Positions 5,034 to 32,506 of a stretch of DNA of 64,000 nt are shown piece after piece. This DNA is from Candidatus Vecturithrix granuli (GTDB lineage: Bacteria > Moduliflexota > Moduliflexia > Moduliflexales > Moduliflexaceae). The notes beneath the pieces were generated by a model. That model searched no databases, was not told the origin of the DNA, and saw only the letters and a program-made list of their open reading frames with translations. Made by a program: the position numbers and the translations under genes. How positions within the stretch are numbered: position 1 is the first letter of the stretch; the number at the start of each line of letters is the position of its first letter. The stretch is taken from the NCBI GenBank assembly GCA_000739535.1, contig DF820463.1, forward strand, positions 380,195 through 444,194, written 5' to 3'.

Positions 5034-5332
5034 CTGATTTTCTTATGTACGTGTAAAAAACTGAGTTTTTTCGAAAAATAATGAACACTTTTTTGAGTCA
5101 AGGAAAATGTGGTCCGAGAAGCACGAAGTTCTGAATCACAGAAAAATGAGGATACTCCTTTTCTGGTTTAGTGCGTCTAAAAGGAGTAAATTTCATTCTT
5201 TCTACAAATCCGAGGGCGAAATAGAAAATCACAAATTAGCACTTGACAATTCTGAATTGCTGCATAACGTGAAAAATTATTTATGAAATCCATTAGATAT
5301 GTATTGATAAGCTTATGACAACGAGGATCGCT

Positions 5333-6616
5333 ATGGATACAGCCCAAATTCATCTCTTGATTGTAGAACAGAATGACACCGCCTCTAATTCATTAACAAG
5401 TGTTTGCCAACAATTGAACTATCACGTCACTTCAGTTCCGGAGGTTGCCCAGGCTTTAAACATACTGCCTGTTCGGGAAAAAACGTTTTCTCAGTCGCCT
5501 GTGTTCGATCTGATCGTGTTTGGGGCTGAGGTGCCTGAGCAAGAGATTTGCCCGTTTCTGGAAAGAATCCAAACCTTCCCTGAGGTCAATGACATTCCGA
5601 CGCTAGTCGCTGCCCATCGTGAAGATACGAAGAAGGTTGTCGCCTGTCTTGAAAAAGGTGCGACGGACTATCTTTTTGATACACATCCCCCTCTGCTATT
5701 AAAAACCCGCATTGATGATTGCGTCGAAATGAAACGGCTGCGCGACCAGGCGCAAACCCATTTAGGGTTGTTACAGCTTGAGCGCGATATGCAAATCGGA
5801 CGCAAGATTCAGACCGATTTTTTACCCAATGTCAATAAATTACCGCGTCCAACCGGGTGGGACATTGTGGCGAAATTTCATCCAGCGCGTCAGGTGGCTG
5901 GTGACTTTTTTGACGCCTTTCCTGTGGGGCGCGATAAAGTCGGGTTGGTCATCGCTGATGTCTGTGATAAAGGGGTTGGGCCGGCGATTTTTATGTCGCT
6001 GAGCCGCAGCCTGCTGCGAGCATTCGCCGAACAACATCGCCCGTTAAATTGGTTGGATAGTCTCACTGGCGAGCTTCCCGCCGAAGAAGTCCAAAAACGG
6101 ATGAAACGCCAGCGTATGCTGCTCTCCGGCGGCACCAGCGCATTGTTGGCGGTTGAATTGACGAATAAATATATTTGTGAAAATCACGGGGATATGAACA
6201 TGTTTGCGACTCTATTTTTTGGAGTGCTTGATCCGGCGACCGGGACGCTGACTTACGTGAATGGCGGACACGATTCGCCGATCATTATTGATTCAACCGG
6301 AAATGTCAAAACCCGCCTGCACCCCACCGGCCCGGCCATCGGCGTAATGTCTGATGTGGATTTTGATATTGAACAAACCACTTTAGACCCTGGCGACCTG
6401 GTGATGATGTTCACCGATGGCGTGACGGATGCCTTGAACCCCCAGGGAGAACAATTTGGAGAAGAGCGTTTGATCTCCTTGTTACAGCAACCCATTGTTT
6501 CAGTCAAGGACATGCTGGATCAGATTGTTGAGAATCTCAAAACCCACATCGCTGAAGCGGACCAGTTTGATGATATTACAATGCTGGCGGCGCGTCATAA
6601 CCCGAAATCGACTTAA
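5333..6616 (+). CDS. SpoIIE/RsbU-type PP2C phosphatase with degenerate receiver domain
   Basis: The 427-residue protein is taken from ATG 5333, which has ACGAGG at 5321-5326. ATG 5315 has no site. Residues 5-120 have a response-regulator fold pattern, but the phospho-acceptor position is Gly64 (D59-LIVF-G64) and the conserved Lys-Pro is replaced by THPP, so it is a pseudo-receiver. A helical linker (LLQLERDMQIGRKIQ) leads to a PP2C domain of the SpoIIE class at about 185-420, with metal-binding Asp in VAGDFFDAF and IADVCDKGVGPA and a later MMFTDGVTDALN. Such enzymes dephosphorylate anti-anti-sigma (STAS) proteins in partner switching. No STAS or RsbW protein is nearby. It is the first gene of a long co-directional block. 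Confidence 0.85.
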   Translation: MDTAQIHLLIVEQNDTASNSLTSVCQQLNYHVTSVPEVAQALNILPVREKTFSQSPVFDLIVFGAEVPEQEICPFLERIQTFPEVNDIPTLVAAHREDTKKVVACLEKGATDYLFDTHPPLLLKTRIDDCVEMKRLRDQAQTHLGLLQLERDMQIGRKIQTDFLPNVNKLPRPTGWDIVAKFHPARQVAGDFFDAFPVGRDKVGLVIADVCDKGVGPAIFMSLSRSLLRAFAEQHRPLNWLDSLTGELPAEEVQKRMKRQRMLLSGGTSALLAVELTNKYICENHGDMNMFATLFFGVLDPATGTLTYVNGGHDSPIIIDSTGNVKTRLHPTGPAIGVMSDVDFDIEQTTLDPGDLVMMFTDGVTDALNPQGEQFGEERLISLLQQPIVSVKDMLDQIVENLKTHIAEADQFDDITMLAARHNPKST

Positions 6617-6641: not shown

Positions 6642-6986
6642 ATGCCAGGATTTTATGAGCATTTGCTGGATGAACTGGACTCCCAGGGGCCGCAAGATGG
6701 ATTCTCCTCTGTTGATCTGTTGAACTTCCCTCCGGCCATCGCATCACTGATGGGGAGAATTATGCGCAAAAACGGGATGACCTTTGCTGAAATCTCCGAT
6801 GAATTACAGCTATCATCAGAAATGACCCAAAAAATTCTTGATGCCCTTCTATTGAAGGGATTTCTGCGCCAGGTACCTGACCCTCAGGACAACATTGTGT
6901 ATAAAACGAAATTTACACCAAAAACCAGAAGACGTGATCCACACCCAAGAGGACAATCTTTTTTAGACGACCTAATGAAAGAATAG
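6642..6986 (+). CDS. Small winged-helix protein
   Basis: The 114-residue protein has a strong ribosome site (GAAGGAGGG, about 6 bases before ATG 6642). Residues about 28-85 have a winged helix-turn-helix pattern: a helix around LMGRIMRKNG, then MTFAEISDELQLSSEMTQKI, LDALLLKGFLRQV and a wing ending IVYKT. The C-terminus is basic and disordered (KTRRRDPHPRGQS) and ends with an amphipathic FLDDLMKE. It could bind DNA or be a protein-interaction wing. It lies 25 bases downstream of the phosphatase and probably belongs to the same operon. Confidence 0.72.
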   Translation: MPGFYEHLLDELDSQGPQDGFSSVDLLNFPPAIASLMGRIMRKNGMTFAEISDELQLSSEMTQKILDALLLKGFLRQVPDPQDNIVYKTKFTPKTRRRDPHPRGQSFLDDLMKE

Positions 6987-7077: not shown

Positions 7078-7833
7078 ATGTCAAAGATAATATCGATTCA
7101 TTCTTTTCGAGGGGGAACGGGGAAATCGAATACAACCGCCAATCTTTCGTTATTGTTAGCAGATCAGGGACTGCGGGTTGGCATCGTGGATACGGATATT
7201 CAATCTCCTGGCATCCATGTGCTGTTGGGGTTAGATCCGAATGATATGGTCCATACGTTAAATGACTACCTGTGGGGAAAATGTGAACTGGCTGAGGCAG
7301 CGCACGATATGAGTTCGCACCTCGGCTTGAAGAGCGGCGGACAGATTTTTTTAATTCCTTCGAGCATGAAAGCCAATGATATTGCGCGAATTCTCAAGGA
7401 AGGGTATGATGTCGGGCTGTTAAACGATGGCTTTAATAATGTACTCGATGATCTGGAGTTAGATGTATTGATGATCGATACCCACCCTGGTTTGAATGAG
7501 GAAACGTTGCTTTCGATTGCGATCTCTGATGCGCTAGTGCTGATCATGCGCCCTGATCAGCAAGATATTCAGGGAACCGCCGTGACGATCGATGTCGCCC
7601 GTAAGTTGAGTGTGCCCAATTTATTGCTCGTCGTCAATAAAGCGCCGGATGTGTATGATTTTGATCAACTCAAACGCGATATGGAAAAAGTCTATGACTG
7701 TCCGGTCGCGGCGATTCTTCCCCATTCTGACGAAATGATGGTGTTGGGAGGAAAAGGGGTGTTTTCCTTAAGTTTTCCGGATCACCCTGTGACGTTAAAA
7801 TTGAAACAGGTTGCCGCTCAGTTAATGGCGTAA
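7078..7833 (+). CDS. MinD/ParA-like P-loop ATPase
   Basis: The 251-residue protein is taken from ATG 7078 because AAGGAGG stands at 7065-7071. An in-frame start at 7036 lacks a site. The deviant Walker A motif is RGGTGKSN at 11-18: the P-loop Lys16 is present, but the family signature lysine is Arg11 and the usual Thr is Asn18. The switch region VDTDIQSPG and the DVLMIDTHPGL strand (Walker B) fit MinD/ParA/CpaE-type SIMIBI ATPases. It lacks an obvious C-terminal amphipathic membrane helix. The next gene is a paralogue with the same length and segment order, for example NDYLWGKC against NNYLWGKC. It is probably part of a localisation or signalling module with the phosphatase and the large membrane protein. 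Confidence 0.85.
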   Translation: MSKIISIHSFRGGTGKSNTTANLSLLLADQGLRVGIVDTDIQSPGIHVLLGLDPNDMVHTLNDYLWGKCELAEAAHDMSSHLGLKSGGQIFLIPSSMKANDIARILKEGYDVGLLNDGFNNVLDDLELDVLMIDTHPGLNEETLLSIAISDALVLIMRPDQQDIQGTAVTIDVARKLSVPNLLLVVNKAPDVYDFDQLKRDMEKVYDCPVAAILPHSDEMMVLGGKGVFSLSFPDHPVTLKLKQVAAQLMA

Positions 7834-7938
7834 TTACGCACAGCATCCTGGTTCTCTGACAAGAGAACGTTTTCAATCGTAACCTGACTCATAAAACGAT
7901 GCAGGGTTCCGTGTAACACCTTCTCCTGGAGAAAAGGC

Positions 7939-8697
7939 ATGACGAAGATCATCATGATTCATTCGTTTCGTCGCGGAGTGGGACGCTCGACGATGATCGC
8001 AAATAGTGCGGCGTTATTAGCATTGGAAGGCAAACGGGTGGGGGTGATTGATACGAATATTCAATCTCCCTCGCTTCACTTTTTTTTCCGCCTAAGCGAG
8101 GCAGATATCGGCTGGTCGCTCAACAATTATTTGTGGGGAAAATGTACGCTCGCTCAGGCAATGTATAATGTGACACCTCAGCAAGACTCGGTCGAAATTC
8201 CGGGACAGATTTTTCTCATTCCAGGCACTTGTCAGACCCATGAAATCGCAAGAGTGTTGAGTAACAGCTATAGCTTCCATTCCTTGAATGCTGATATAGA
8301 ATCATGGGCCGAAGATCTCCAATTAGATGTGCTCTTTATTGACCCACGGTCTGGTTTAATCGAGATGACCCTGGCGTCTATTGCGATTGCTGATACCCTG
8401 GTGGTGTTGATGCGTCTTGATCGGCAGGATTTTGAAGGTACAGGAATGATGCTCCATCTGCTTCGGAAGATCGATGTTTCGGAGGTGCTCCTTGTGGTCA
8501 ATGAAGTTCCGAAAGAGTATGAGTTGAATGTCATCAGAAAAGAGGTCGGACAAAAATTACAACATGATGTGGCCGCAGTTATTCCTCATTCTCGAAAGCT
8601 GCTGGCACTGGGGAGTAATGGTTTGTATGCGTTGCGCTACCCTGACGATCCTTTGACAGATTTATACAGACAGATTGCTAAAAAGTTGCTTATCTAA
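7939..8697 (+). CDS. MinD/ParA-like paralogue with broken P-loop
   Basis: The 252-residue protein aligns along its length with its upstream neighbour (HSFR at 8-11, DTNIQSP, NNYLWGKC, IFLIPGTCQTHEIAR, DVLFIDPRSGL). Its Walker A is RRGVGRST at 11-18: the catalytic P-loop lysine is Arg16 and the second Gly is Arg12. Nucleotide hydrolysis is therefore unlikely in the usual way. It may be a regulatory partner that heterodimerises with the intact paralogue, as pseudo-ATPases often do (inference). A GGAG lies just upstream of ATG 7939. The 105-base gap from the first paralogue holds nothing I recognise. Confidence 0.82.
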   Translation: MTKIIMIHSFRRGVGRSTMIANSAALLALEGKRVGVIDTNIQSPSLHFFFRLSEADIGWSLNNYLWGKCTLAQAMYNVTPQQDSVEIPGQIFLIPGTCQTHEIARVLSNSYSFHSLNADIESWAEDLQLDVLFIDPRSGLIEMTLASIAIADTLVVLMRLDRQDFEGTGMMLHLLRKIDVSEVLLVVNEVPKEYELNVIRKEVGQKLQHDVAAVIPHSRKLLALGSNGLYALRYPDDPLTDLYRQIAKKLLI

Positions 8698-8720: not shown

Positions 8721-11700
8721 ATGGTAAATTTTTTTTGTACATTATTTAATATTCGAAAAGACGAATGGATGAGTGTTCTTTTTCTTTTTACGATAGCGGC
8801 TCTGGTGACAACCGGATCGATCTGGGGGTCAACCATCGCCTATGCCGCTTTTTTAAAACAAGTTGGACTACACTTATTGCCCTGGATTCTGGTGTTGAGC
8901 GCGATCCTCTCTTTTTTCGCCACAGGAATTTATACGGCCTTTGTTGATCGTATTAATCATCAGAAACTCCTGACGGGAATTTATATTTTTGGCGCTGCCA
9001 GCATTGCTTTAGGATTAACCTTACTCTATTTGAAATTTTCTTCCATTGCGTTTCCAATACTGTATCTGCTCTTCCTGGCAAGGGTCGCTATTTCTAATCC
9101 GCATTTTATTACCTATGTGAATAGTTTTTATGATATTCAATCTGCCAAGCGGGTTCTGCCGGTGATTACCGCCGGTTTTCGAATAGGAAATATTCTGGGC
9201 GGATTGACGACCCCGCTATTACTCGCCTGGTTTGCTTCGGATAGGATTATTACGATTTGGCTTTTAACCTATATCCCTATCGTAGGCCTGGTATGGTTAA
9301 TGCCTTACTTTCTCAGAAAAAAAGGAGCATCCGGTAAACCACCTCATCGGAGTACATCGCTTGTGAAGACAGCTTCAAGAAGACCCTATTTTCTTGATCT
9401 CGAAAATATAAAAGAAGGTTTTAGCTATACGATCCGCTCAAATTATCTGCGCTGGATCGCGATCGGAACCCTTTTATCTATGATACTCCTGGCTTTGATT
9501 GAGTATAAAACCATGGAGCTTTTATTACAGGTCTGTGGTACTCAGGAAGAATTAGCAAGCTTTTTAGCATTAGTGACCGGAATCGCCAATATTTTTGCTT
9601 TGCCGATATTGGTCTTTGCCATCAGCCGCCTTATTACCCTTCTCGGTCTGAACAATGTTATCTTATTTTTTCCCCTGATTAATTTGTTTATCTGCGGTGG
9701 GCTTATTTTTGCCCCGGGCACGCTCAGCGCAATAGGAGCGTATCTTGGTTACTCCGTCTTTCCAGGGATTTTTCAATTCCCGATTGATGGTCTGCTTTAC
9801 AATGCCGTGCCATCAAGAATAAAAGGGCGCGCCTGCGCCTTTGTGAATGGACTGGTTGAACCGATCGGCACCTTAATGGGAAGTCTGTTGCTCTTCATTC
9901 CGGTGTTGGTCACAAGCTGGTGGATGATTCCGTTGATTATTGGAATCCTGGCGCTGGCGTATGTTGCCAATACCCTGGTCATCCGCAAACAATATCGTAT
10001 CGCCTTAATCAAAATGTTAGAAGAGGAAGATTTCTCATTTATGCTTCCACAAGAAAGCTCAGATATTACCACAACGGATCCTATTATCCTTGCCCAGTTA
10101 GAAAAAAAGCTCAAAGAGAGTACCAGTCGAGAATTGACCGTGTTTATGGCTCAACTTATCAGCCAAACTGGGAGCCATGAAGCCGGAAAAATTTTGAGAA
10201 GAGCGATAGACAACGCGACAGACGCCAGAATGCGTTCAGCAATTCTTGATGTCATGGCGGCCTCAAATCTGAAGGGTGACATCGTACGCGATACATATAC
10301 CACGTTCCTTGCTGATCCGGATGAACAGGTTCGACAATCAGCCTTTATCGGCCTGGAACAATTGATGGGCATTAACAATAAGCAGTTTGTCGCCCTGGCC
10401 GTCAACATGTTGAACGATTCCAGTACGCAAGTGCGTATCCGCGTCCTTTCTGCACTCAGCCAAACCCGCGATTTTTATCTGATGCCCTCTGCCATGAATG
10501 TGCTGAATGCATTTCTTGCCGATGATGCGCCGAGCCTTCGCGCTCAGGGAGTTCAAATCCTCGGACAAATCGAAGAGGAGGGAGCTTTAGTGAGATTGGC
10601 TGAGTATGTGAATGACCCGGCTGATGAGGTGCGGTTAGAAGCGGCGACAGCCATTGAAGCCCGTATTCACAGCATCAATGGTCATCCATCAGGAACTCTG
10701 TTTGTGGCAAAAATGGAAACCTTGCTCCATGATCCGGTGGAACGTGTGCGTCAGGCCGCTTTGCAAGTGATCGGACATGGCTGCAAACAGAATCGAGATT
10801 TGTATCCAAAACTGATTGAAGCGTTATCTGATAGTAGTCCGCATATCAGAGCAACCGCAGTGAATAACCTGACGCACCTGGGAAAATCAGTCATTTCGGT
10901 TCTTCATCCGAAATTAAACTCGCCTCAACTGGATTTACGTAAAATGGTTGCGGTGGTATTGTGCCGGATTCAGCCGGAAGAATTTGGACCCCTGGTCAAC
11001 ACGAGTATTCAAGGAAACCTCCTGAACATTTATCAGCAGTACGCGATCTCAGACATGCTTGGAAGCTACCAGAGTTCTTTTGGACTCATGATCCTTCAAA
11101 AAGTCCTGAATGATCGCAATCAGCAACTTCTTGATGAGATTTTTTATCTGATGTCTGCGATGCACGATGCTGACGCGGTTCAATTGGTGAACGAATCGCT
11201 GCATAGCAAGGAGTTGAGCCTGAGAGCCAGTGCGATGGAGGTGTTAGAAACAATGACCAACCCCAAAACCGCAAGGCTCATGTCTCCGTTCTTTGATCCG
11301 GAACACCAAGCAGAACAGATCCTCTCGATTGGGAAAGATGTATGGGATTTACCCCAGCCGGACATGGCAAAGACGCTTCGAACGTTTCTCGCCACTCCTG
11401 AAGAACCCTGGTTGCGAACGATTGCTACCTTTGTTTTAGGTGAATTGGGAGCTTCCCTGACTCCATCCCCGCGACCCCCTCAACCTGCTATTCTTCCGGA
11501 TAAGCCCAGGGTCACATTCAAATTATTAGATGAGACAAACAGTGAAAACCGTGAAATCAACAATGGCGAAGGCGCTTCAGAACATATAGGGAGTAGGAGG
11601 AGGACGGCGCGGCGCGCGGTCAAACCCGATCTGTTGAGTCTCCTTTCCGATGAAGCGTCTCCAGAGACCGCGCAAACTTCAGCGCTGCCTGCTGTTGCCC

Positions 11701-12386
11701 CCGAAACGAAAGAATCTGACGCAATAGATCGCCCTTCAGATTCCGCTCCCACGATATTCACGCTACCAGAAATCGAAACGCTGCTAGCCAGTTCTCTTGC
11801 CGATTCGGATGAGGAGGTGCGTTTTACCGCTCAAATCGCCCAACGGATGATCGCAGGGCTCAGGAAAAAAGATCTTCTACAAAAGGAGCATGTCATGCTT
11901 TCAGCTATTGAAAAAGTGATTTTTTTAAAACAGGTATCATTCTTCCAGGGAATGACGATAGAACAACTCAAAGTGCTCGCCAATGTCTGTGAAGAAGAGT
12001 TCTTTCCGACAGATACGCACCTGTTTCATCAGGGAGAATCCGGCGTCAATTTATATGTCATCGTGAATGGTCGTGTGGGGATTGAACAGGAAAAACGCAA
12101 AGGCTCCTTTGTCAGAGTCAATACACTTGAAGCGTATTCCTATCTCGGCGAAGTATCGGTGTTTGATGCCAGTCCGCATACGGCGGATGCTATTGCCATC
12201 CAGGATACTCTGACCCTGCGAATCAGCCGTGAACACCTGTTAGCGTTAGCCCGGCAGCATCCAGAGCTCTCGCTGCAATTAATTAACGCGCTTAATAAAC
12301 AGTTACGCCATGCCTACGATCGTATTGCCGAACTGACTCGTTCCAGACCGCGAGAATTGCACAAATTATTCGATCAATTTGACTGA
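8721..12386 (+). CDS. Large membrane protein: transporter-like domain, HEAT repeats and cNMP-binding-like domain
   Basis: The 1221-residue protein has three parts. Residues 1-430 carry about 12 hydrophobic segments in the pattern of MFS or nucleotide (ATP/ADP) exchange transporters, with charged cytoplasmic loops. Residues about 455-900 are helical HEAT-like repeats (recurring D-x-x-x-x-V-R-x-x-A-x-x-A/L units such as DPDEQVRQSAFIGL, DDAPSLRAQGVQIL and DPVERVRQAALQVI). After a disordered stretch, residues about 1055-1180 match a cyclic-nucleotide-binding fold (HQGESGVNLYVIVNGRV, then LGEVSVFDASPHTADA). The phosphate-binding cassette has the Glu but a His where the ligand-binding Arg is expected, so cAMP binding is doubtful. 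It ends 19 bases before the NRPS start codon. It may be a sensor or scaffold rather than a transporter. Confidence 0.8.
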   Translation: MVNFFCTLFNIRKDEWMSVLFLFTIAALVTTGSIWGSTIAYAAFLKQVGLHLLPWILVLSAILSFFATGIYTAFVDRINHQKLLTGIYIFGAASIALGLTLLYLKFSSIAFPILYLLFLARVAISNPHFITYVNSFYDIQSAKRVLPVITAGFRIGNILGGLTTPLLLAWFASDRIITIWLLTYIPIVGLVWLMPYFLRKKGASGKPPHRSTSLVKTASRRPYFLDLENIKEGFSYTIRSNYLRWIAIGTLLSMILLALIEYKTMELLLQVCGTQEELASFLALVTGIANIFALPILVFAISRLITLLGLNNVILFFPLINLFICGGLIFAPGTLSAIGAYLGYSVFPGIFQFPIDGLLYNAVPSRIKGRACAFVNGLVEPIGTLMGSLLLFIPVLVTSWWMIPLIIGILALAYVANTLVIRKQYRIALIKMLEEEDFSFMLPQESSDITTTDPIILAQLEKKLKESTSRELTVFMAQLISQTGSHEAGKILRRAIDNATDARMRSAILDVMAASNLKGDIVRDTYTTFLADPDEQVRQSAFIGLEQLMGINNKQFVALAVNMLNDSSTQVRIRVLSALSQTRDFYLMPSAMNVLNAFLADDAPSLRAQGVQILGQIEEEGALVRLAEYVNDPADEVRLEAATAIEARIHSINGHPSGTLFVAKMETLLHDPVERVRQAALQVIGHGCKQNRDLYPKLIEALSDSSPHIRATAVNNLTHLGKSVISVLHPKLNSPQLDLRKMVAVVLCRIQPEEFGPLVNTSIQGNLLNIYQQYAISDMLGSYQSSFGLMILQKVLNDRNQQLLDEIFYLMSAMHDADAVQLVNESLHSKELSLRASAMEVLETMTNPKTARLMSPFFDPEHQAEQILSIGKDVWDLPQPDMAKTLRTFLATPEEPWLRTIATFVLGELGASLTPSPRPPQPAILPDKPRVTFKLLDETNSENREINNGEGASEHIGSRRRTARRAVKPDLLSLLSDEASPETAQTSALPAVAPETKESDAIDRPSDSAPTIFTLPEIETLLASSLADSDEEVRFTAQIAQRMIAGLRKKDLLQKEHVMLSAIEKVIFLKQVSFFQGMTIEQLKVLANVCEEEFFPTDTHLFHQGESGVNLYVIVNGRVGIEQEKRKGSFVRVNTLEAYSYLGEVSVFDASPHTADAIAIQDTLTLRISREHLLALARQHPELSLQLINALNKQLRHAYDRIAELTRSRPRELHKLFDQFD

Positions 12387-12405
12387 AAAGAGGGAACTGA
12401 GCAGT

Positions 12406-15400
12406 ATGGAGAAGTATGATCAGTTTTGTTGCTTTCTCATCGGAGAAGGTAGCCTTCCGGTCCAATGTGGCAATCTCCTTTTAGAATGCAAACATGGCAT
12501 CTGCGGAATGATTTCGCCGGATGCCACTGTGCGCCAATGGGCCGAGCAGCGCAAGATTCCCTGCTATGCTCCGACTGACGATCTTGTCCATATTTTAGGA
12601 AAACAACCCTTCGATTATCTTTTCAGTATCGTCAATAGCACGGTCATTCCTGCCAATGCCTTGAAATTGCCCCGGAGATATGCCATTAATTATCATAATG
12701 CGCCGCTGCCAAAATACGCCGGCACGAACGTGGCTTCTCATGCCATCATGCACCAGGAAAAATTTCATGGGGTCACATGGCATGTGATGACCGAGAGCGT
12801 GGATGCGGGCGACATCTTAAAACAACACACTTTTCCTATTGGAGCGCATGAAACAGCTCTGAGTTTGAATACTAAATGTTATGAAGCCGCGCTGCACTTA
12901 TTCGGTGAACTTGTTGAGGAACTTGCTTGTGGGCGCATTCACCCGATTCAACAAAATTTAACGGAACGAACGTATTTTGGACGCTATCAGCGTCCCCCTG
13001 CCGCCTGTCTGCTTGATTGGAACCAGGAAGCTCAGGTTATTGATGCAATGGTACGAGGGTTGACCTTTGGGAATTATCCTAATCCTCTGGGGCTGCCCAA
13101 GATGCTTGTTGGAAAGACGTGTCTGGCCGTCGCCGCGTTGGAGGTGACCGATATTCCTTCGCAAAATCCACCCGGAACAATTACAATGATAACCCCAGAG
13201 ATACTCACGATTGCCACTGGCACCTTCGATGTGAACATTTGTCAGATTACAAGACTTGATGGACACCCACTTTCCGTCGTGGAATGCGCAGAACAATTCG
13301 ATCTCCGTGTAAAAGATGTGCTGCCGCTTCCATCAGTTGACCTATCTCGTCGTCTTACTGAAATTCATGCTCAGATTTGCCGACACGAATCTTTTTGGAT
13401 CAAGTGTTTAGAAACTCTCCAGCCAATGCCTCTGCCATATAGTATCCATCTTGCAAATCCCTCAGCAACAGGCCATATCGAGTGTATCACCATGAATGTT
13501 CCGGCTCCGGCTGACAGCGATTTTTTCCTGGCAGCTTGCATAACATATTTTGCACGGCTCAACAATCTTTACCAAGGCGATATTGCCTTTTGTTACCCTG
13601 AATTACGCCAGAAGCTTGACGGCCTAGAGCCATTTTTTGCGATGTACGTGCCTTTTCACCTGCACCTGGATGATACGCAGTCTTTGTGTGTAAACCAACA
13701 AGCCATATACACCGAGATAAGCCGTGTGAAAACCCGTCAAACCTACATGCGCGATCTGGTTGCCCGTTTTCCTTCTCTTCATTCAAAAACAGAACTCCGT
13801 GCTCAGGCAATTTTACCTGTCGCTGTCGAAGTGTTTGAGGGGGAAAATCTGCTATCTGTCTCGTCTGATGCGTATTTGACGCTGAGGATAAAGGGGAATG
13901 GCGCGGTATGCCATTGGATCTATAAGACAGGCTGGTTGAAGCCGGATGACGTGGCCCGGATGGCGCATTATTTTGAAACCTTTGTCTCTGCCCTGCTCGC
14001 GCAGCCGGAACAGCCCTTAGCCTGTGTTCCTTTGTTAACGCCAAAGGAACAACATCAGATTCTTTATGAATGGAATGCAACTCAGGCTGAGTATCCCCAC
14101 ACCTCTTGTCTGCACCAAATCTTTGAGGCGCAAGTCAGAAAAACGCCTGAAGCAATCGCGGTCGTGTATGAAGATGCGCAGCTCACGTATCGGGAATTGA
14201 ATCAGCGCGCCAATCAATTGGCTCATTATCTACGGAAATCAGGGGTAGGCCCCGAAGTGCTGGTTGGCTTGTGCCTGGAACGGTCTTTAGAAATGATCGT
14301 CGGATTGTTGGGCATTTTGAAAGCTGGCGGAGCGTATGTGCCTTTCAATCCTGAGGATCCAAAGGAACGTTTAGCATTCATGCTGGAAGATACGCAGGCA
14401 TCAATACTCCTCACCCAACAAGCACTCTTAGCTCATATACCTGAGCAGAGAGTACAGGTGATCTGTATAGATACACACTGGAAAACAATTTCGCGTGAGA
14501 ACGAGAATGACCCTGAAAATAGCACGTTGCCCCAGAACATAGCGTATGTGATTTACACGTCAGGCTCAACAGGGATCCCAAAAGGCGTGGTGATTCAACA
14601 TCAGTCAGTCCTGAATTTATGGAACGGATTAGCTCATAGTATCTATGCTCAGAAGATCAGGGATTTACTAAGGATTAGCCTGAATGGCCCCTTAACGTTT
14701 GATACATCGGTGAAACAATGGGTTCAACTTCTGAGCGGTCATACCCTCTATGTGATCCCGGCAAGGATGCGATTTCATGGGAATGCGTTGCTCAATTATC
14801 TCCAGCAGCATAAAATTGATGTTTTCGATTGTACTCCCTCTCAGTTAAAGTTACTGCTTGAAGTTGGAATGTCAAAAGATGCCCCTGGTAAGGTACTCGT
14901 TGCCGGAGAAATGATTGAGGACGCAACCTGGCAAGAATTAGCCCCTCAGACAGTAACAACATTTTATAACCTATACGGGCCAACGGAATGTACTGTAGAT
15001 ACAACGGTCTGTCAAATAAGTGCTGTTTCTCACACACCGACGATTGGACGTCCACTTTCGAATATCCAGGTGTATATCCTGGATCCTTCTTGCCAACCTG
15101 TGCCGGTTGGCATCTCTGGTGAGCTTTACATTGGCGGTGTTGGACTGGCGCGAGGATATTTAAAGCGTGCTGACACGACAGCTGAAAAATTTGTGCCGCA
15201 CCCTTTTAGTTCTCAGCCAGGGGCACGTATGTATAAAACCGGCGACCTTGCGCGTTATTTGCCCGATGGAAATATCGAGTTCCTCGGCCGGAGCGATCAC
15301 CAGGTTAAAATTCGTGGTTTTCGAATTGAACCAGGAGAAATTGAAACAATAATATCTGAAAATCCTCTGGTGCAGGATGCTGTTGTGTTGGTACGCGAGG

Positions 15401-15924
15401 ATATCCCTGGCGATAAACGCTTGGTTGCGTATGTTATCCCTGCTCAGGGAGAACATCCAACATCTCGAGAACTACGGAATGCGCTCACAGAAAAATTGCC
15501 TGGCTACATGATTCCAGCGGCGTTTATCCAGGTAGAGCGTTTCCCGCTGACGCCGAATGGCAAGATCGATCGTCGCGCTTTTCCGCCTCCCGATTGGTCT
15601 CAAAGGCAGGGAAAATATGATATAGTTGCTCCGCGTACCTCTACAGAGCGCATTTTGGCCGAGATTTGGACGGAAGTATTAGAGATAGAACACATAAGTA
15701 TTGATGATAATTTTTTTGAGATAGGAGGTCATTCGCTTTCAGGTATGCGTATCCTTTCCCGCTTGCAAGCCATCTTGCACATCTCGTTGCCTCTTCACAC
15801 GCTCTTTGAGTCCCCCACCGTGGAAAGTCTGGCTCGCGCTGTCGACGCCGTGCACTGGGCCATTCAACATCAGCAAGAACCGTCTTCCCCAGCCGATAAT
15901 GAGCGCGAGGTGGTTGTATTATGA
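12406..15924 (+). CDS. NRPS starter module: formyltransferase, partial condensation, adenylation, PCP
   Basis: The 1172-residue protein is taken from ATG 12406 with AGAGGG upstream. A TTG at 12379 would overlap the previous gene. Residues 1-300 are a formyl-tetrahydrofolate-type transferase. The catalytic Asn95-x-His97 and Asp133 keep the 38-residue spacing of methionyl-tRNA formyltransferase, and a C-terminal lobe (LTFGNYPNPLG) follows. Residues about 312-555 look like only the C-lobe of a condensation domain, with no HHxxxDG. Residues about 563-1060 are an adenylation domain (YVIYTSGSTGIPKG, NLYGPTE, YKTGDLARYLPDG, NGKIDRRAF). The PCP attachment Ser1110 is in GGHSL. My hand-read specificity residues, D-T-K-D-L-A-L-V-D, resemble glutamate codes. 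The likely role is loading and N-formylating the first residue of a peptide. It overlaps the next gene by ATGA. Confidence 0.87.
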   Translation: MEKYDQFCCFLIGEGSLPVQCGNLLLECKHGICGMISPDATVRQWAEQRKIPCYAPTDDLVHILGKQPFDYLFSIVNSTVIPANALKLPRRYAINYHNAPLPKYAGTNVASHAIMHQEKFHGVTWHVMTESVDAGDILKQHTFPIGAHETALSLNTKCYEAALHLFGELVEELACGRIHPIQQNLTERTYFGRYQRPPAACLLDWNQEAQVIDAMVRGLTFGNYPNPLGLPKMLVGKTCLAVAALEVTDIPSQNPPGTITMITPEILTIATGTFDVNICQITRLDGHPLSVVECAEQFDLRVKDVLPLPSVDLSRRLTEIHAQICRHESFWIKCLETLQPMPLPYSIHLANPSATGHIECITMNVPAPADSDFFLAACITYFARLNNLYQGDIAFCYPELRQKLDGLEPFFAMYVPFHLHLDDTQSLCVNQQAIYTEISRVKTRQTYMRDLVARFPSLHSKTELRAQAILPVAVEVFEGENLLSVSSDAYLTLRIKGNGAVCHWIYKTGWLKPDDVARMAHYFETFVSALLAQPEQPLACVPLLTPKEQHQILYEWNATQAEYPHTSCLHQIFEAQVRKTPEAIAVVYEDAQLTYRELNQRANQLAHYLRKSGVGPEVLVGLCLERSLEMIVGLLGILKAGGAYVPFNPEDPKERLAFMLEDTQASILLTQQALLAHIPEQRVQVICIDTHWKTISRENENDPENSTLPQNIAYVIYTSGSTGIPKGVVIQHQSVLNLWNGLAHSIYAQKIRDLLRISLNGPLTFDTSVKQWVQLLSGHTLYVIPARMRFHGNALLNYLQQHKIDVFDCTPSQLKLLLEVGMSKDAPGKVLVAGEMIEDATWQELAPQTVTTFYNLYGPTECTVDTTVCQISAVSHTPTIGRPLSNIQVYILDPSCQPVPVGISGELYIGGVGLARGYLKRADTTAEKFVPHPFSSQPGARMYKTGDLARYLPDGNIEFLGRSDHQVKIRGFRIEPGEIETIISENPLVQDAVVLVREDIPGDKRLVAYVIPAQGEHPTSRELRNALTEKLPGYMIPAAFIQVERFPLTPNGKIDRRAFPPPDWSQRQGKYDIVAPRTSTERILAEIWTEVLEIEHISIDDNFFEIGGHSLSGMRILSRLQAILHISLPLHTLFESPTVESLARAVDAVHWAIQHQQEPSSPADNEREVVVL

Positions 15925-18900
15925 GACCTGTTTCTGAGCTGTTAGCAGATCTTCGAAATTCAGGAGTCCACATTCTGGTCAACGGCGAAGAACTGCATCT
16001 AAACGCCCCAAAAGGCAGCCTGACCCCAGACCTGCGCGCTGAAATTGCTCAACGCAAAGCGGACATCCTGGCGTTTTTCCGGGCGGTGGCGAGCGGCGGC
16101 TCGCAAGCATCGTCGCCCATTCCGGTTGTTCCGCGAGATACGCCTCTGCCCCTGTCTTTTGCCCAGCAACGCCTCTGGTTTTTGCACCAATTCGAGGAAG
16201 AACAACGGGGACTGTACAATGTGTCAAAAGCTTTTCAGCTTCACGGTCGGCTTGATATCCAGGCATTGGAACAAAACGTGAGCGCCATTGTGCGTCGTCA
16301 CGAGGTGTTGCGGACAAGCTTTGCCATGCATAACGGCGATCCGGTACAAACAATTCTGACTGACGCCAGAGTGCCCTTCTCCATCCGGGATCTCCAAGAT
16401 CTTTCACCGCAAGAACAGGCTGACAGCGTTCAACACTTCGCGGTGCAAGAAGCGCAACGCCCCTTTGATTTGGAGCAGGGACCCTTACTGCGCGTGCTGC
16501 TGCTGCGTGTCGCGCCAACAGACCATGTTGTAGTGCTGACGATACACCATATTGTGTCAGACGCTTGGTCAACCGGAATCTTGTTTCAAGAACTCGCGCA
16601 CATCTATCAGGCCTGGGTCACAGGAGAACCGGTTTCTTTGCCCGATCTCCCGATCCAGTATGCCGACTTTGCGGTCTGGCAGCGAAATTGGCTTCAGGGT
16701 GATCGCTTAGAGCGATTAACGGCTTATTGGAAAAATCAATTGGAGGCCATCCCTCCGATCCTGGAACTCTCTATAGAACATCCCCGCCCGGCGATTCAGA
16801 GTTTTCAGGGAAAGACTCTGAGATTTTCCCTGAACGCTGCTCTGTGCCAGAAATTAACGACGTTGAGTCAACAAGCAGGAGCGACGCTCTTTATGACGCT
16901 TTTGGCGGCGTTTGTCAGTTTACTTGCGCGTTATAGCGGGAGTAATGATATTGTCGTGGGGTCGCCGATTGCCAATCGCAGACATCCGGCGTTGGAATCG
17001 TTGATCGGCTTTTTTGTGAATACGTTGGTGTTGCGGGTGAATGTTGCGGAGAATCCGACATTTTTAGACGTGCTCCAACAAGTGCGAAAGGTGACTCTGG
17101 AGGCTTACGACCATCAGGATCTCCCTTTTGAACGGTTAGTTGAAGTTTTGCAGCCGGAACGGAACCTCCATTCATCCCCTCTTTTTCAGGTGATGTTTGT
17201 TTTCCAAAATGCGCCTAAAACCCACATGGAACTATCCGGGTTAACCGTAAAATCGCTCGAATTCGATCCTGGAATCGCTAAATTTGATCTCACTCTGGGC
17301 TTTATAGAAACTGAGCATGGAACATTAGACGGAACCATCGAATATGCTACAGATTTGTTCGATGCTGAGACGATCACGCGCATGATCGGCCATTTGCAGA
17401 CAATTCTCACTGGCATTGTCCAGGATCCCCAGAAATATATTTCGGATTTACCTCTGTTAACTCAGGCGGAGCGACAACAAATTTTAGAGCAATGGAACGA
17501 TACTCACGTCAGTTATGCGGAACAAGGCTTCCTTCCTGAGCTTTTTGAAGCGCAAGTGCAGCATACGCCGGACGCAACCGCGGTTGTATTTAACAATACA
17601 CCTTTGACGTATCAGGAACTGAATCAACGCGCTAATCACGTCGCGCACTACCTGAGGAGTTTAGGCGTTGGACCGGAAGTGCTGGTCGGGATTTTTGTTG
17701 AGCGTTCGCTGGAAATGATGGTCGGATTACTGGGGATTTTAAAAGCTGGAGGAGCGTATGTTCCTCTTGATCCGGAATTTCCCCAGGCGCGTTTACAGTT
17801 TATGATAGATAATTCAGGGGTTTCAGTGTTGTTAACCCAAAAGGCTTTAGAAAAGAAACTCCCGTCCAATCAATCCCAAAAGGTGTTTCTTGATGCCGAT
17901 TGGGAAAACATCGCTGTCACAAGCGAAGGCAATCTTGTGCATGGCCTGCACGGAGCGAATCTGGCGTATGTGATTTATACTTCAGGTTCAACAGGTCTTC
18001 CCAAAGGCGTCCAGATTTCGCACAACGCGCTGCGTAACTTCTTGCTCTTCATGCGTCAACAATTGGGGGTTACAGCCAGGGATGCGTTGCTCGCTGTCAC
18101 CACGCTGTCGTTTGATATTGCCGGTTTAGAACTATTTCTGCCCTTGATAGCAGGTGGAACAGTTGTGCTGGCCGACCGGGAGACAACGCTGGATGGCCGT
18201 CGGTTAAGCGAACGATTAGAGCAATGCGGCGTGACGGTGATGCAAGCAACCCCTGCGACGTGGCGGCTCATGTTAGCATCCGGGTGGCGCAACACCGCAG
18301 AATTGCGAGCGTTATGCGGTGGTGAGGCTCTTCCGCGCGACCTGGCCGCGCAGTTGCTTAATGGCGTCGCGTCGTTAAAGAACCTGTATGGCCCCACAGA
18401 AACCACAATATGGTCGTCGTTGCATCAGGTTACCTCTTCAGACCAGACCATTCCGATTGGCAGACCCATAGGCAATACTCAATTTTATATCCTGGACGCT
18501 TCTTTTACCCCTACGCCAGTTGGGGTGGCCGGGGAATTATATATCGGAGGCGCGGGTTTGGCGCGCGGATATTTCAAACGCCCAGACTTGACGGCTGAAA
18601 AATTTGTGCCGCACCCCTTGAGTTCAGTCCCCGGAGAACGATTATATAAAACCGGCGACCAGGTCAGATATTTGCCCGATGGCAATATTGAGTTTCTTGG
18701 GCGTCGCGACGATCAGGTCAAAATTCGAGGTTTCAGAATTGAATTGGGCGAAATTGAGACAGCATTATCCGAATATCCTGCCATACGTCAGGCTGTTGTT
18801 GTTGTGCAAGGAGACGATTTGCAGAGCAAACGTATCGCGGCTTACCTTGTGCCCCAGGATAATTCCGTTTCAATTGAAACGTTGCAGGGATTTCTGAAAG

Positions 18901-21011
18901 AAAAACTGCCTGACTATATGATCCCATCGGTATTTGTGTTTTTAGATGCGCTGCCGTTAACCCCGAATGGGAAAATAGATCGCCGCGCTTTACCATCTCC
19001 TGGCTCAGAGCGGCCCCGATTGCAAGCGCAATATGTTGCCCCGCGTACGCCTGTTGAAGACCTGCTTATCGGTATCTGGAGTGATCTCTTAGAACTTGAG
19101 CACATCGGTATTCATGATGATTTCTTTCAATCAGGCGGGCATTCTTTGCTCGGCACACAGCTTATCTCCAGGATTAGTCAGACATTCGGTATACACCTTC
19201 CTCTACGTGTGTTATTTGATAGACCGACGGTGGCTGGATTAGCAGAACTGATTGCGAACAATGATATCCTCCTGGGACAGGAGACTATGATTCCTCGTGC
19301 GCCCTTCGCATGCGCAAGAGAGTATAAGGAAGGGTTTCCGCTTTCGTACGCACAGCAACGTTTATGGTTCTTTGAACAACTTGAACCGGGAAATGCGGTG
19401 TATAATTTTCCGATGATGCTCCAATTGAATGGGCAGCTTCATATCTCTGCTCTGCAACAAAGTTTGGATGAAGTCGTTCGCCGCCATGAGATCTTGCGTG
19501 CATATTTTGTAACAATTCATGGCGAGCCGCGGCAGCGTATTGCTCCTGTCGCAAGCATTCCTGTACTAATTAGAAATCTGCAACATTTGTCGCCAACAGA
19601 GCAGATAATCGAAGTCCAGCGGCTGGTCGTCGCAGAGGTCCTGCAAGGTTTTGATCTTGCACGAGGGCCGCTATTGCGCGCCAGTTTGCTGCAATTAGCT
19701 GAATCAGAATACATCCTGTTTTTCATGATCCATCATATTGTGTTTGATGAGTGGTCAAAAGGAGTGCTTTTGTGGGAGTTATCAATGCTGTATGAGGCCT
19801 TTGCGGCTGGAAAGCCTTCTCCTTTGGCTGAACTTCCAATCCAATATACGGATTTTGCATGCTGGCAGCGGCAACAGTTGCAGGGAAAGGTCTTTGAGGT
19901 ACAATTGGACTATTGGAAAAAGACACTTGCCGGGAAAATCCCTCTCATGCGGCTTCCGACCGATCGGCCGCGACCGCGTATTCAAACCTTTCAGGGCGCA
20001 ACCTACTCGTTCATGTTTTCTCAATCCCTGATGAAGACGTTGAAAATATTGAGCCAACATGAGAATGTCACCTTATTCATGACGCTGTTGGCAGCCTGGA
20101 AAATCTTATTGTATCACTATACCGGCTTAGAGGATGTATTTGTTGGTACGCTGATTGCGAACAGAAATGTCAAGGAGAGCGAGGATCTGATCGGATTTTT
20201 TGCCAATACCCTCGTATTGCGCACCGATCTTTCCGGGAATCCGACTTTTCGGGAATTACTGAGACGGGTACGAGAAGTGACGTTGGGAGCGTATAGTCAT
20301 CAGGATATGCCCATCGAGAAACTTGTAGAAATTCTGCAGCCAGCGCGCAGTCTGAGGTATCATCCTTTTTTCCAGGTTTTATTTGTGTTTCAAAACACTC
20401 CAATGGAGAAATTAGAACTTCCCGGGGTGAGCGTGACCACATTAAAACCCCGGAACATGACGGCCCTGTTTGATTTGGAATTGTACATCCGTGAGGCAGA
20501 AGAGGGATTACAGGGCAATCTGGAATATAAAACAGACCTTTTTGATGAAGCCACGATGATCCGTTTAATCCAGCATTTTCAGACGATCTTAGAAACAGGC
20601 GTTGCTCATCCTGATTGGCGCATGACAGAATTTCCTCGTGTCTATCCCACTAAACAAGAGCAGAACAATATTCCTGGCATTCTTTCTGAGTCTGACCTGG
20701 GAATTTATCCGATTCCATCCGTTACCGCAAACGCATCTATCTCTTCCCTGTCTTCTCCTGAAAACACGCTATGCGCAATATGGTCTAAAATTTTGGGAGT
20801 AAAAGATGTTGACATTTATGATAATTTTTTTGAATTAGGAGGATATTCCCTGTTAGCTGCGCAGCTTATTTTTCAGGTGAACGCCGTTTTTCACGTTGAA
20901 ATTGCCTTGCGCAGTTTTTTTGAAAATCCAACGGTGGCTGGATTGACGCAAATTATAAGTCGTTTATCTGAGCAAAAAGAGGTTATGACCAGGGTAAGAG
21001 AGAGTTTCTGA
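15921..21011 (+). CDS. NRPS: docking, C-A-PCP, C-PCP
   Basis: The 1696-residue protein starts at ATG 15921 inside the ATGA overlap, so translation is coupled to the first NRPS. Residues 1-55 match the TubC-type N-terminal docking domain (LLADLRNSGVHILVNGEEL, then LTPDLRAEIAQRKADILAFF). C1 spans about 72-500 with H209-H210-IVSD. The A domain spans about 532-1020, and the hand-read code D-I-L-Q-L-G-L-I-W equals a published glycine code as I remember it. PCP1 has Ser1075 in GGHSL. C2 spans about 1150-1590 with HHIVFDEW near 1270. PCP2 has Ser1643 in GGYSL. There is no thioesterase or reductase, and the last module lacks its own A domain, so a partner may load PCP2 or another protein may release the product. 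Confidence 0.88.
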   Translation: MRPVSELLADLRNSGVHILVNGEELHLNAPKGSLTPDLRAEIAQRKADILAFFRAVASGGSQASSPIPVVPRDTPLPLSFAQQRLWFLHQFEEEQRGLYNVSKAFQLHGRLDIQALEQNVSAIVRRHEVLRTSFAMHNGDPVQTILTDARVPFSIRDLQDLSPQEQADSVQHFAVQEAQRPFDLEQGPLLRVLLLRVAPTDHVVVLTIHHIVSDAWSTGILFQELAHIYQAWVTGEPVSLPDLPIQYADFAVWQRNWLQGDRLERLTAYWKNQLEAIPPILELSIEHPRPAIQSFQGKTLRFSLNAALCQKLTTLSQQAGATLFMTLLAAFVSLLARYSGSNDIVVGSPIANRRHPALESLIGFFVNTLVLRVNVAENPTFLDVLQQVRKVTLEAYDHQDLPFERLVEVLQPERNLHSSPLFQVMFVFQNAPKTHMELSGLTVKSLEFDPGIAKFDLTLGFIETEHGTLDGTIEYATDLFDAETITRMIGHLQTILTGIVQDPQKYISDLPLLTQAERQQILEQWNDTHVSYAEQGFLPELFEAQVQHTPDATAVVFNNTPLTYQELNQRANHVAHYLRSLGVGPEVLVGIFVERSLEMMVGLLGILKAGGAYVPLDPEFPQARLQFMIDNSGVSVLLTQKALEKKLPSNQSQKVFLDADWENIAVTSEGNLVHGLHGANLAYVIYTSGSTGLPKGVQISHNALRNFLLFMRQQLGVTARDALLAVTTLSFDIAGLELFLPLIAGGTVVLADRETTLDGRRLSERLEQCGVTVMQATPATWRLMLASGWRNTAELRALCGGEALPRDLAAQLLNGVASLKNLYGPTETTIWSSLHQVTSSDQTIPIGRPIGNTQFYILDASFTPTPVGVAGELYIGGAGLARGYFKRPDLTAEKFVPHPLSSVPGERLYKTGDQVRYLPDGNIEFLGRRDDQVKIRGFRIELGEIETALSEYPAIRQAVVVVQGDDLQSKRIAAYLVPQDNSVSIETLQGFLKEKLPDYMIPSVFVFLDALPLTPNGKIDRRALPSPGSERPRLQAQYVAPRTPVEDLLIGIWSDLLELEHIGIHDDFFQSGGHSLLGTQLISRISQTFGIHLPLRVLFDRPTVAGLAELIANNDILLGQETMIPRAPFACAREYKEGFPLSYAQQRLWFFEQLEPGNAVYNFPMMLQLNGQLHISALQQSLDEVVRRHEILRAYFVTIHGEPRQRIAPVASIPVLIRNLQHLSPTEQIIEVQRLVVAEVLQGFDLARGPLLRASLLQLAESEYILFFMIHHIVFDEWSKGVLLWELSMLYEAFAAGKPSPLAELPIQYTDFACWQRQQLQGKVFEVQLDYWKKTLAGKIPLMRLPTDRPRPRIQTFQGATYSFMFSQSLMKTLKILSQHENVTLFMTLLAAWKILLYHYTGLEDVFVGTLIANRNVKESEDLIGFFANTLVLRTDLSGNPTFRELLRRVREVTLGAYSHQDMPIEKLVEILQPARSLRYHPFFQVLFVFQNTPMEKLELPGVSVTTLKPRNMTALFDLELYIREAEEGLQGNLEYKTDLFDEATMIRLIQHFQTILETGVAHPDWRMTEFPRVYPTKQEQNNIPGILSESDLGIYPIPSVTANASISSLSSPENTLCAIWSKILGVKDVDIYDNFFELGGYSLLAAQLIFQVNAVFHVEIALRSFFENPTVAGLTQIISRLSEQKEVMTRVRESF

Positions 21012-21336: not shown

Positions 21337-23244
21337 ATGAACAACGAGAGTGGAAAAAAGTCTGCAAAGCCCTATATTTTAGCTTTTGTGTTATGGGGCA
21401 TCTTTTTTCTGATGATTTATGAAGATCAGATTCCTGAGTTTGCTGCGCGCGTGATGAATTCTTTCCATGCATCCTATAGTGCATTAATAAGGTTTATTCA
21501 GACGACTCAGACCGAACCCCCTCAGAAAATTGAAACAACGCTGCCGCTGGCTCTTGCTCCGGATATGAATGCCCAGACCGTGGGGGATACTCTGCGTATC
21601 ATTAACCCGGAAGCGCCCACATTACTCAACCCGCACCTTTCCTCATCCTTACAAGATTGGGAACCCAGTCGCATTACGTATGAACCGCTCGCTAGCTTCG
21701 ATAAGAATGGGAACTTAATTCCTTTTTTGGCCGCCGAGATTCCGACGCTTGAAAATGGCGGACTGGCGGCTGATGGCAAATCGGTCACCTGGAAGCTCAA
21801 ACAGGATGTGAAGTGGTCGGATGGAACGCCTTTTACTGCAGAAGACGTATTCTTTACGTATCAGTTTGATATCAACCCGGAAGTCAATACTCCCTATGCA
21901 GAGAATTATGAGGTGGTTGATAGTCTTGAGGTGTTAGATTCTTATACGATAAAAATTAATTTCAAAAATGTGAATCCGGCCTGGGCCACGCTCTTTGTTG
22001 GAATTGAGGGGACAATTCTTCCGCGCCATATCTTTGAGCCATACAATGGTTCCAATGCTCATGAGGCGCCTGCTAATACCTTGCCAGTAGGAACTGGACC
22101 GTATCGTGCCGTTCCTCCGGGGATAAAAACGCAGGAAGTTTTACTGTTGGGTACGCAGCTTTTGGAAACCAATAAAATCGTGTTTGAGCCGAATCCGTAT
22201 TTTCGAGAACTTGAGACGCTGTATTTCAGCCGCATCGAATTTCGGGGGGGCGGAACTTCCGAAGAAGCGGCGCGATCAGTCTTTCAGGAAGGGGCGGTTG
22301 ATTATGCCTTTGGAGTGGAAACCTTATCGAATGAGGTCTTAGAAGAAATGATGCAGGGGGAACAAGGCCGCCTTATTATCAATTGGGGCTCCGGGTGCGA
22401 GCGGATTGCGATGAATCGGACAGATCCGAATCGCGCAACCGAAGATGGCGAACGTTCGAGCGTGAATTTTCCCCATCCGCTTTTTAGCGATAAGAGGATT
22501 CGGCAGGCTATTGCTTATGCGATAAACCGAGACGCTATTGTGCAGGCGTTTGGTCCTGCCGGACGTCCGACCAGCAATAACCTGATTGCGCCGCCGCAAT
22601 ATAATTCGCCCAATGTCTTTTATACGTTTAATTTAACGAAAGCCGCTGAACTTTTAGATGAAGCCGGGTGGATTGATACGGATCATGACGGGATTCGCGA
22701 AAAAGACGGGGTAAAAATGAAAGTCGTGTATCAGACTTATGTTGGTGAAGCGGCCCAGCAAACCCAACGCATCGTGAAAGATACACTGGAATCAATTGGA
22801 ATTGAAGTGGAATTAAAAATCGTTGATTCAAGCATCATGTTCGGTTCTCCGCTGGAAAACCCTGACAACGTTCGGCGATTCAATGCCGATATGCAAGAAT
22901 TTTTTCGCATGAGCTCCAGTCCTGATCCCGGAAGCTATATGAAAGGTTGGACGTGCAGCCAAATTCCCCAGAAAGTCAACAATTGGACAGGCGCGAATTA
23001 TGAACGTTGGTGCAATCAGGAATATGATGATCTCTACCAGCAGACAACGGTTGAAGTTGATCCCAAACGGCGGCAGCAGATGTTTATTCGAATGAATGAT
23101 CTTCTGATCGAGGATGTCGTCATGATTCCTCTTGTGGATTGGGCTGATGTCCGGGGGATAAGCCAAACGGTTGCGGGCATTGATTTAACTCCCTGGGATG
23201 CTAATACCTGGAATATTAAAAATTGGAAGCGAATTGCACGCTAA
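21337..23244 (+). CDS. Membrane-anchored peptide-type solute-binding protein (SBP family 5)
   Basis: The 635-residue protein starts at ATG 21337 with GGGAG upstream. An N-terminal hydrophobic segment (about residues 13-31, AFVLWGIFFLMIY) has no clear cleavage site, so the protein is probably anchored facing the periplasm. From about residue 80 it follows the DppA/OppA class (TLRIINPEAPTLLNPH, then VKWSDGTPFTAEDVFFTY, then DKRIRQAIAYAINRDAIVQ). Family proteins bind oligopeptides, nickel or sugars for ABC import. No permease or ATPase genes follow. The position just after the NRPS and before a HAMP-GAF sensor suggests it may perceive or capture a peptide for signalling (inference). Confidence 0.85.
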   Translation: MNNESGKKSAKPYILAFVLWGIFFLMIYEDQIPEFAARVMNSFHASYSALIRFIQTTQTEPPQKIETTLPLALAPDMNAQTVGDTLRIINPEAPTLLNPHLSSSLQDWEPSRITYEPLASFDKNGNLIPFLAAEIPTLENGGLAADGKSVTWKLKQDVKWSDGTPFTAEDVFFTYQFDINPEVNTPYAENYEVVDSLEVLDSYTIKINFKNVNPAWATLFVGIEGTILPRHIFEPYNGSNAHEAPANTLPVGTGPYRAVPPGIKTQEVLLLGTQLLETNKIVFEPNPYFRELETLYFSRIEFRGGGTSEEAARSVFQEGAVDYAFGVETLSNEVLEEMMQGEQGRLIINWGSGCERIAMNRTDPNRATEDGERSSVNFPHPLFSDKRIRQAIAYAINRDAIVQAFGPAGRPTSNNLIAPPQYNSPNVFYTFNLTKAAELLDEAGWIDTDHDGIREKDGVKMKVVYQTYVGEAAQQTQRIVKDTLESIGIEVELKIVDSSIMFGSPLENPDNVRRFNADMQEFFRMSSSPDPGSYMKGWTCSQIPQKVNNWTGANYERWCNQEYDDLYQQTTVEVDPKRRQQMFIRMNDLLIEDVVMIPLVDWADVRGISQTVAGIDLTPWDANTWNIKNWKRIAR

Positions 23245-23298
23245 GAACGTAAAAGAGAAAGAATACAATCCCTTCACAACATATTGGGGACATCTAAC

Positions 23299-31594: not shown

Positions 31595-31597
31595 GTC

Positions 31598-32491: not shown

Positions 32492-32506
32492 AAAGAGAAA
32501 AAAATC

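Follow-up and report, generated by a model that had tools for sequence, protein, structure and literature searches.

The window, the whole stretch of 64,000 nucleotides analysed here, carries on its forward strand two neighbouring genes for MinD/ParA-like proteins, which we refer to as ParA1 (7078..7833, +) and ParA2 (7939..8697, +). Both reading frames are intact: that of ParA1 runs from the ATG at 7078 to the stop at 7833, encodes 251 residues and follows the ribosome-binding site AAGGAGG, and that of ParA2 runs from the ATG at 7939 to the stop at 8697, encodes 252 residues and has the ribosome-binding site CTGGAGAAAAGGC. The two genes are separated by 105 bases, ParA2 and the next gene by 23, and the proteins are 43-44% identical. 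The P-loop of ParA1, a MinD/ParA-like ATPase, reads R11-G-G-T-G-K16-S (within HSFRGGTGKSN), with Lys16 present and Arg11 in place of the signature lysine as the sole change, and its switches I and II read DTD and IDTHPG. ParA2 is a degenerate paralogue with the P-loop R11-R-G-V-G-R16-S (within HSFRRGVGRST), in which arginine stands at both the signature (Arg11) and the P-loop (Arg16) lysine; a sequence-only reading of the window had singled out Arg11 in ParA1 and Arg16 in ParA2, and both are confirmed. Further changes in ParA2 are G12R, at the second glycine of the motif, and the replacement of DTD by DTN in switch I and of IDTHPG by IDPRSG in switch II, the altered site residues being R16, N40 and P136. 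In an alignment to the genome's own MinD, it retains the switch-II aspartate and the base-contacting asparagine; the roles of this asparagine and of the switch residues in ParA1 and ParA2 we take to be those generally ascribed to them in MinD/ParA proteins. The central residues G13, G15, S17, D38, D135, G139 and N188 are all present in ParA2 and are invariant in a 32-row alignment. No further close relative of the pair was found in the rest of the 8.38-Mb genome, nor, at an E-value of 1e-10, in three other genomes of the phylum.

Between the two genes lies a weak terminator-like hairpin (7851..7868, +) with a stem of 7 pairs and a T-rich tail behind it, which could uncouple ParA1 from ParA2; its fold z-score is -1.0, and 11 terminator-like sites were found between 4900 and 12500 where 7.6 (sd 3.0) are expected. 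A promoter scan gave 8 sites against 11.7 expected, and Rfam gave no match close to the pair. At some distance from it, at 1877-1922 (+), the window contains an Acido-Lenti-1 RNA with an Rfam score of 40.1 against a gathering threshold of 37.

The pair is embedded in a co-directional series of genes. Upstream of ParA1 are a response-regulator-like protein with a SpoIIE (PP2C) phosphatase domain (5315..6616, +) and a winged-helix (wHTH), MarR-like protein of 114 residues (6642..6986, +), and similar small ORFs precede ParA1 in other genomes. ParA2 is directly followed by a protein that combines a membrane (NTT/MFS-like) part with HEAT repeats and a cNMP-binding domain (8721..12386, +), a non-ribosomal peptide synthetase (NRPS) with formyltransferase-like, adenylation and PCP domains (12379..15924, +), a second NRPS with a TubC-like docking domain and condensation, adenylation, PCP, condensation and PCP domains (15921..21011, +), an SBP_bac_5 solute-binding protein (21337..23244, +) and a 4HB/CHASE3-HAMP-GAF sensor (23284..25236, +). 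The order in the window is thus SpoIIE-type phosphatase, wHTH, ParA1, ParA2, membrane-HEAT-cNMP, two NRPS, SBP_bac_5 and CHASE3-HAMP-GAF. Fusions of transporter, HEAT and cNMP-binding domains similar to that at 8721-12386 are known as NTT-HEAT-cNBD proteins (Major et al., 2017, PMC5381601), and the accessible part of that paper makes no mention of a ParA/MinD or NRPS neighbourhood. One of our loci (L079) contains a stand-alone membrane protein weakly similar to the membrane part of 8721..12386, which matches the TLC ATP/ADP transporter family with an E-value of 5e-6.

This arrangement is found in several Chloroflexota as well (genomes and loci are denoted here by G and L numbers, respectively). 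ParA1 precedes a membrane-HEAT-cNMP gene in 9 loci, and in 8 of them a ParA2 lies further downstream, on the contig and strand of ParA1, the exception being G541, where there is none. While ParA1 adjoins ParA2 in the window, the two are mostly non-adjacent in the other genomes. In G004, G015, G538 and G539, ParA1 is followed by genes of these kinds in the order of the window, with the first NRPS in the same place and homologues of the second NRPS, the SBP_bac_5 protein and the sensor also present, and the series ends with ParA2, behind the HAMP-GAF gene. In these four genomes and in G542, a HAMP-GAF homologue lies directly before ParA2 or is separated from it by a small wHTH gene, as is sometimes seen in the first four. 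In G542, of whose locus the two ends were read, ParA1 and the membrane-HEAT gene are followed about 15 kb further on by SBP_bac_5, HAMP-GAF and ParA2 genes, and in G014 the order is ParA1, NRPS, HAMP-GAF, NTT-like and ParA2 (Arg at the P-loop), with other ORFs interspersed and no SBP_bac_5 match at the locus. G544 has HAMP-GAF and ParA2 (Arg) genes on a different contig from ParA1. Across these eight genomes, including that of the window, the P-loop residue of ParA2 is Arg three times and Lys five times. A protein of about 1200 residues lies upstream of ParA1 in G004, G015 and G538, the G015 version (L005) having adenylate/guanylate cyclase and AAA domains.

The cluster is hence common to the window and several Chloroflexota, across phyla, and the context is new; a literature search by title and abstract, with subscription journals mostly outside its scope, found no description of such a ParA pair or cluster. 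The full cluster is also rare: at an E-value of 1e-60, the HAMP-GAF marker was found in 4 of 150 genomes of the class of G014, three of them matching over the C-terminal part only and the fourth being G014 itself. ParA1 by itself is common, often with a DNA ligase or sigma-factor gene as its neighbour, and occurs in genomes that yielded no ParA2 (e.g., G541, G545, G546 and G458), which argues that ParA1 does not depend on ParA2. Conversely, the recurrence of ParA2-type genes in the cluster of ParA1 argues that they are not casual duplicates. In one bin labelled as Desulfobacteraceae (L008), where no ParA2 was found, ParA1 groups with that of the window (support 96/83), so that either ParA1 crosses phyla or the contig was mis-binned.

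By fold and sequence, both proteins belong to the MinD/ParA (SIMIBI, deviant Walker A) superfamily. Each scores above the gathering thresholds of the Pfam families AAA_31, ParA and CbiA, and phmmer returns matches to MinD chains. An AlphaFold2 model of ParA2, built from an alignment of the window protein with 31 relatives from the window or the loci, has a mean pLDDT of 92.9 and a pTM of 0.91, places the predicted P-loop helix at residues 16-29, and finds MinD (1hyq, TM 0.80/0.86) as its top Foldseek match in the PDB, the best matches being MinD, FlhG, FleN and Soj, with McdA at rank 30 and BcsQ (6yay) at rank 39. The prediction thus supports ParA2 as an intact protein with a MinD fold and several catalytic residues replaced. 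The canonical KGGxxK[S/T] motif with both lysines is found in neither protein, ParA1 being without the first lysine and ParA2 without both, and we therefore treat them as superfamily relatives by fold and sequence rather than as bearers of the canonical motif. Nor are they MinD proper: they score 55.3 (ParA1) and 37.7 (ParA2) bits against an equivalog cut-off of 212.9, stop near residue 251, short of the C-terminal stretch in the genome's own MinD, and have no C-terminal extension with a membrane-targeting helix. They likewise fall below the cut-off of 157.85 bits for BcsQ (TIGR03371), with 30.6 (ParA1) and 37.0 (ParA2) bits.

Loss of the P-loop lysine is already known in the superfamily, and the pair appears, by analogy, to be a variant of this. 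The curated NCBIfam family NF047398 (KGGVGR-motif variant AAA ATPase), in which the P-loop lysine is likewise an arginine, differs from ParA2 in keeping the first lysine (KGGVGR). ParA2 has the arginine in its P-loop (GVGRS), which ParA1 does not, but at 73.6 bits it stays below the family cut-off of 90 and does no better than ParA1 (74.9 bits), so that we do not assign it to the family. Two other proteins of the same genome exceed this cut-off, with 149.6 and 125.9 bits, and their switch II, IDSRTG, resembles the IDPRSG of ParA2. The genome's two KGGVGR/KGGTGR ParA-like proteins (C19:159516-160136, L157, and C20:443479-444099, L158) are further P-loop arginine variants and lie in frames of 710 and 502 residues with long C-terminal extensions. 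TadZ/CpaE proteins, which are ParA/MinD-like as well, have a receiver domain and a Tad-pilus context, both absent from ParA1, ParA2 and the locus. In the TadZ of E. rectale both lysines are lost and ATPase activity is reported (PMC10482377). BcsQ, with the motif RGGVGTT (PMC9178275, Table 1), shares with ParA2 the arginine at the signature position and the loss of the P-loop lysine, and works with its operon partner as an ATP-bound sandwich dimer (PMC11470070); in contrast, NRPS genes occur in the cluster of ParA2, among whose members we saw no cellulose synthase. As BcsQ and TadZ are described as ATP-bound or hydrolysing without both lysines, the loss in ParA2 need not mean that it does without ATP. 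Comparable to ParA1 with its Arg11 is McdA type 1, which is without the signature lysine (PMC8262871; motif SGGQGKT, PMC9178275) but differs from ParA2 in that it keeps the P-loop lysine and positions carboxysomes together with McdB.

We collected 26 full-length ParA2-type proteins, comprising that of the window and those from loci and genomes of Chloroflexota, and counted as a second paralogue any row without RGGTGKS, which is why Gly12 is absent from 26 of 26; left out were near-copies (L015 and L016, of L014), a duplicate entry (L171, the same gene as L172) and fragments (L098, without its N-terminus, L030/L090 and L069). At the P-loop position 19 of them carry Lys and 6 carry Arg (those of the window, G005, G014 and G544 and both from G548), and one, L022 6950-7705 (GTGTS), has Thr, a change from Lys to Thr as in BcsQ. 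The second switch-I aspartate is replaced in 12 of the 26 and the P-loop lysine is gone in 7, so that 15 have lost at least one of both residues and 11 retain both, while Arg11 is kept in 22. Given Lys in 19 and Lys with Asp in 11, it does not follow that hydrolysis is lost throughout the ParA2 family. One of the two G548 copies (L180 1734-2639; GAGRTT, switch I CAR) is strongly degraded, and the other (L179 2334-3188) is an Arg-type ParA2 immediately before a membrane-HEAT gene, in a window-like arrangement. On the side of ParA1, positions 11, 12, 13, 15, 16, 17, 38, 40, 135, 136, 139 and 188 (numbered as in ParA2) show no variation across all 83 rows, nor do the same twelve across all 28 rows of another group with RGGTGKS, although part of this invariance is built in, as the former were picked at ≥60% identity to the window ParA1 and the latter by the motif. 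As far as these alignments tell, loss of site residues is recurrent in ParA2, unlike in ParA1.

When 8 genomes are compared pairwise, ParA2 is less conserved in identity than ParA1 in all 28 pairs. For the two closest pairs, dN/dS estimates are 0.113 and 0.070 with ParA2 and 0.049 and 0.043 with ParA1. By these estimates ParA2 evolves faster than ParA1 yet is constrained, in two pairs that are both Lys-type; in Arg-type pairs, synonymous sites have reached saturation or come close to it. A scan of 400 Chloroflexota genomes with an Arg-motif pattern that requires HSF matched 49, and in a subset of 40 loci checked the hit was ParA-like in one, G014, which had been chosen as the centre. The pattern HSFRRG matched 12 of 400 genomes, with ParA-like hits in G004 (the centre), G006, G029, G309 and G391, all with Lys.

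The Arg16 codon of the window ParA2 is CGC, and those of four other Arg-type rows are CGC or CGA (the sixth, L180, is outside this set); all five are two or three changes away from a lysine codon. The Arg-type proteins of the Chloroflexota G005, G014 and G544 form a clade with support of 100/100, and together with the five CGN codons this argues that the arginine is not recent. In the maximum-likelihood tree the window ParA2 falls outside this clade and 4 changes account for the 6 Arg rows, and none of 200 bootstrap trees recovers a single origin. A single clade is, however, not rejected by AU tests, whether for the window with the three-genome clade (p 0.367), for five (p 0.259) or all six rows (p 0.209) or in an earlier three-row test (p 0.243), and we therefore do not claim proven convergence but allow for one or several origins. 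A clade of three Arg ParA2s with two KGGxGR proteins is likewise neither established nor rejected (p-AU 0.144). The terminal branch of the window ParA2 measures 0.88, against 0.21 for ParA1. For the sequence-only reading this is a mixed outcome: its view of ParA2 as held as a protein without a normal site agrees with the intact ORF, the predicted MinD fold and the recurrence in the cluster, but the check it proposed, conservation of the arginine in the second paralogue across genomes, fails, and although orthologues with lysine, which it would have taken for the sign of a recent mutation, do exist, the recent mutation itself is contradicted by the CGC codon and the Arg clade.

Switches of the MinD/ParA type are usually viewed as symmetric dimers obliged to hydrolyse ATP. 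We give about even odds (a probability of roughly 0.5) to ParA2 being a selected, nucleotide-binding but poorly hydrolysing protein that would act together with ParA1, or with another protein of the cluster, either as a locked half or as a scaffold, and the recurrence of this degraded partner suggests that it may have been retained for a job besides ordinary ATP burning. ParA1 and ParA2 would then be an unequal SIMIBI pair of the MinD/ParA type in a conserved signalling and peptide-synthesis cluster, in which ParA1 retains the P-loop Lys16 and both switch-I aspartates, with Arg in the place of the signature lysine, and ParA2 retains the fold, the switch-II aspartate and the presumably trans-acting Arg11, combined with R16, N40 and the changes in switch II. 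We infer that ParA2 still binds nucleotide and that its hydrolysis is poor or absent. It could be an ‘ATP-locked’ half dimerised with ParA1, with Arg11 reaching the nucleotide of ParA1 and its own site without turnover, or a stable, BcsQ-like scaffold; in either case it would determine the place or the time at which the membrane-HEAT-cNMP/NRPS/SBP machinery works. Arg11 is expected, by analogy to the signature lysine, to act on the nucleotide of the partner (PMC10482377), and we count its retention while cis-acting residues are lost, along with the association of the genes, in favour of pairing with ParA1. Against it count the frequent occurrence of ParA1 alone, the many ParA2s with Lys, the mostly separate genes and the weak hairpin.

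That Arg16 simply replaces lysine in a variant P-loop, leaving ParA2 an active or slow ATPase and no pseudo-enzyme, is in our view unlikely. A whole curated family, NF047398, has Arg at the P-loop, with two members in the same genome whose IDSRTG resembles the switch II of ParA2, and the TadZ passage (PMC10482377), by which relatives without the lysines may hydrolyse ATP, counts here and against the reading we prefer. The switch-I aspartate is, however, replaced too, neither ParA2 nor ParA1 reaches the cut-off of that family, and our literature search found no biochemistry for KGGVGR proteins. We find it more unlikely still that ParA2 is a decaying duplicate with unselected ATP turnover, the arginine being one step of neutral decay. 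The long terminal branch, the several site changes occurring together and the even more degraded L180 copy of G548 would fit such decay, whereas the intact frame of 252 codons with its ribosome-binding site, the seven central residues kept, the recurrent cluster membership, the dN/dS of 0.07-0.11 in two (Lys-type) ParA2 pairs and the arginine kept throughout a three-genome clade speak against it. It is very improbable, finally, that ParA2 serves a conflict system of multicellular bacteria as an inactive MinD/ParA effector, a ‘decoy or dominant-negative’ that would target ParA1 or the partition proteins of phages or plasmids. MinD/ParA-like effector domains ‘predicted to be inactive’ are described from such systems in multicellular lineages, Chloroflexi included (Kaur et al., 2020, PMC7159879), and cNMP and wHTH parts are present in our cluster too, but there is no MoxR or vWA among the window genes scanned, PADLOC matches are partial only (PDC-M28B, HEAT or CRP-like models), and the cluster is centred on NRPS genes and a solute-binding protein.

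A fuller version of the preferred reading, of a ParA2 retained for a role other than turnover, we put forward tentatively and consider doubtful as a whole: ParA1 would hydrolyse, while a nucleotide-locked ParA2 that has given up its own turnover would complete the ParA1 site in trans through Arg11, and this asymmetric switch would serve to position or gate a signalling system, made up of a cNMP-controlled membrane transporter, NRPS and peptide-binding parts, that is common to this lineage and Chloroflexota, in which the partner would have lost its P-loop lysine repeatedly. A conserved cluster that maintains an invariant site in one member and tolerates the loss of catalytic residues in the other would offer a natural experiment on the residues still required in a partner or scaffold, and it ties a MinD/ParA pair to an apparently undescribed set of NRPS, cyclic-nucleotide and solute-binding genes across phyla.

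Further along the window, at 28193-38528, a helicase with a NO VEIN C-terminus, a DUF1156 methylase-like protein and DUF499 proteins are encoded in series, in what looks like a defence or restriction-type island.
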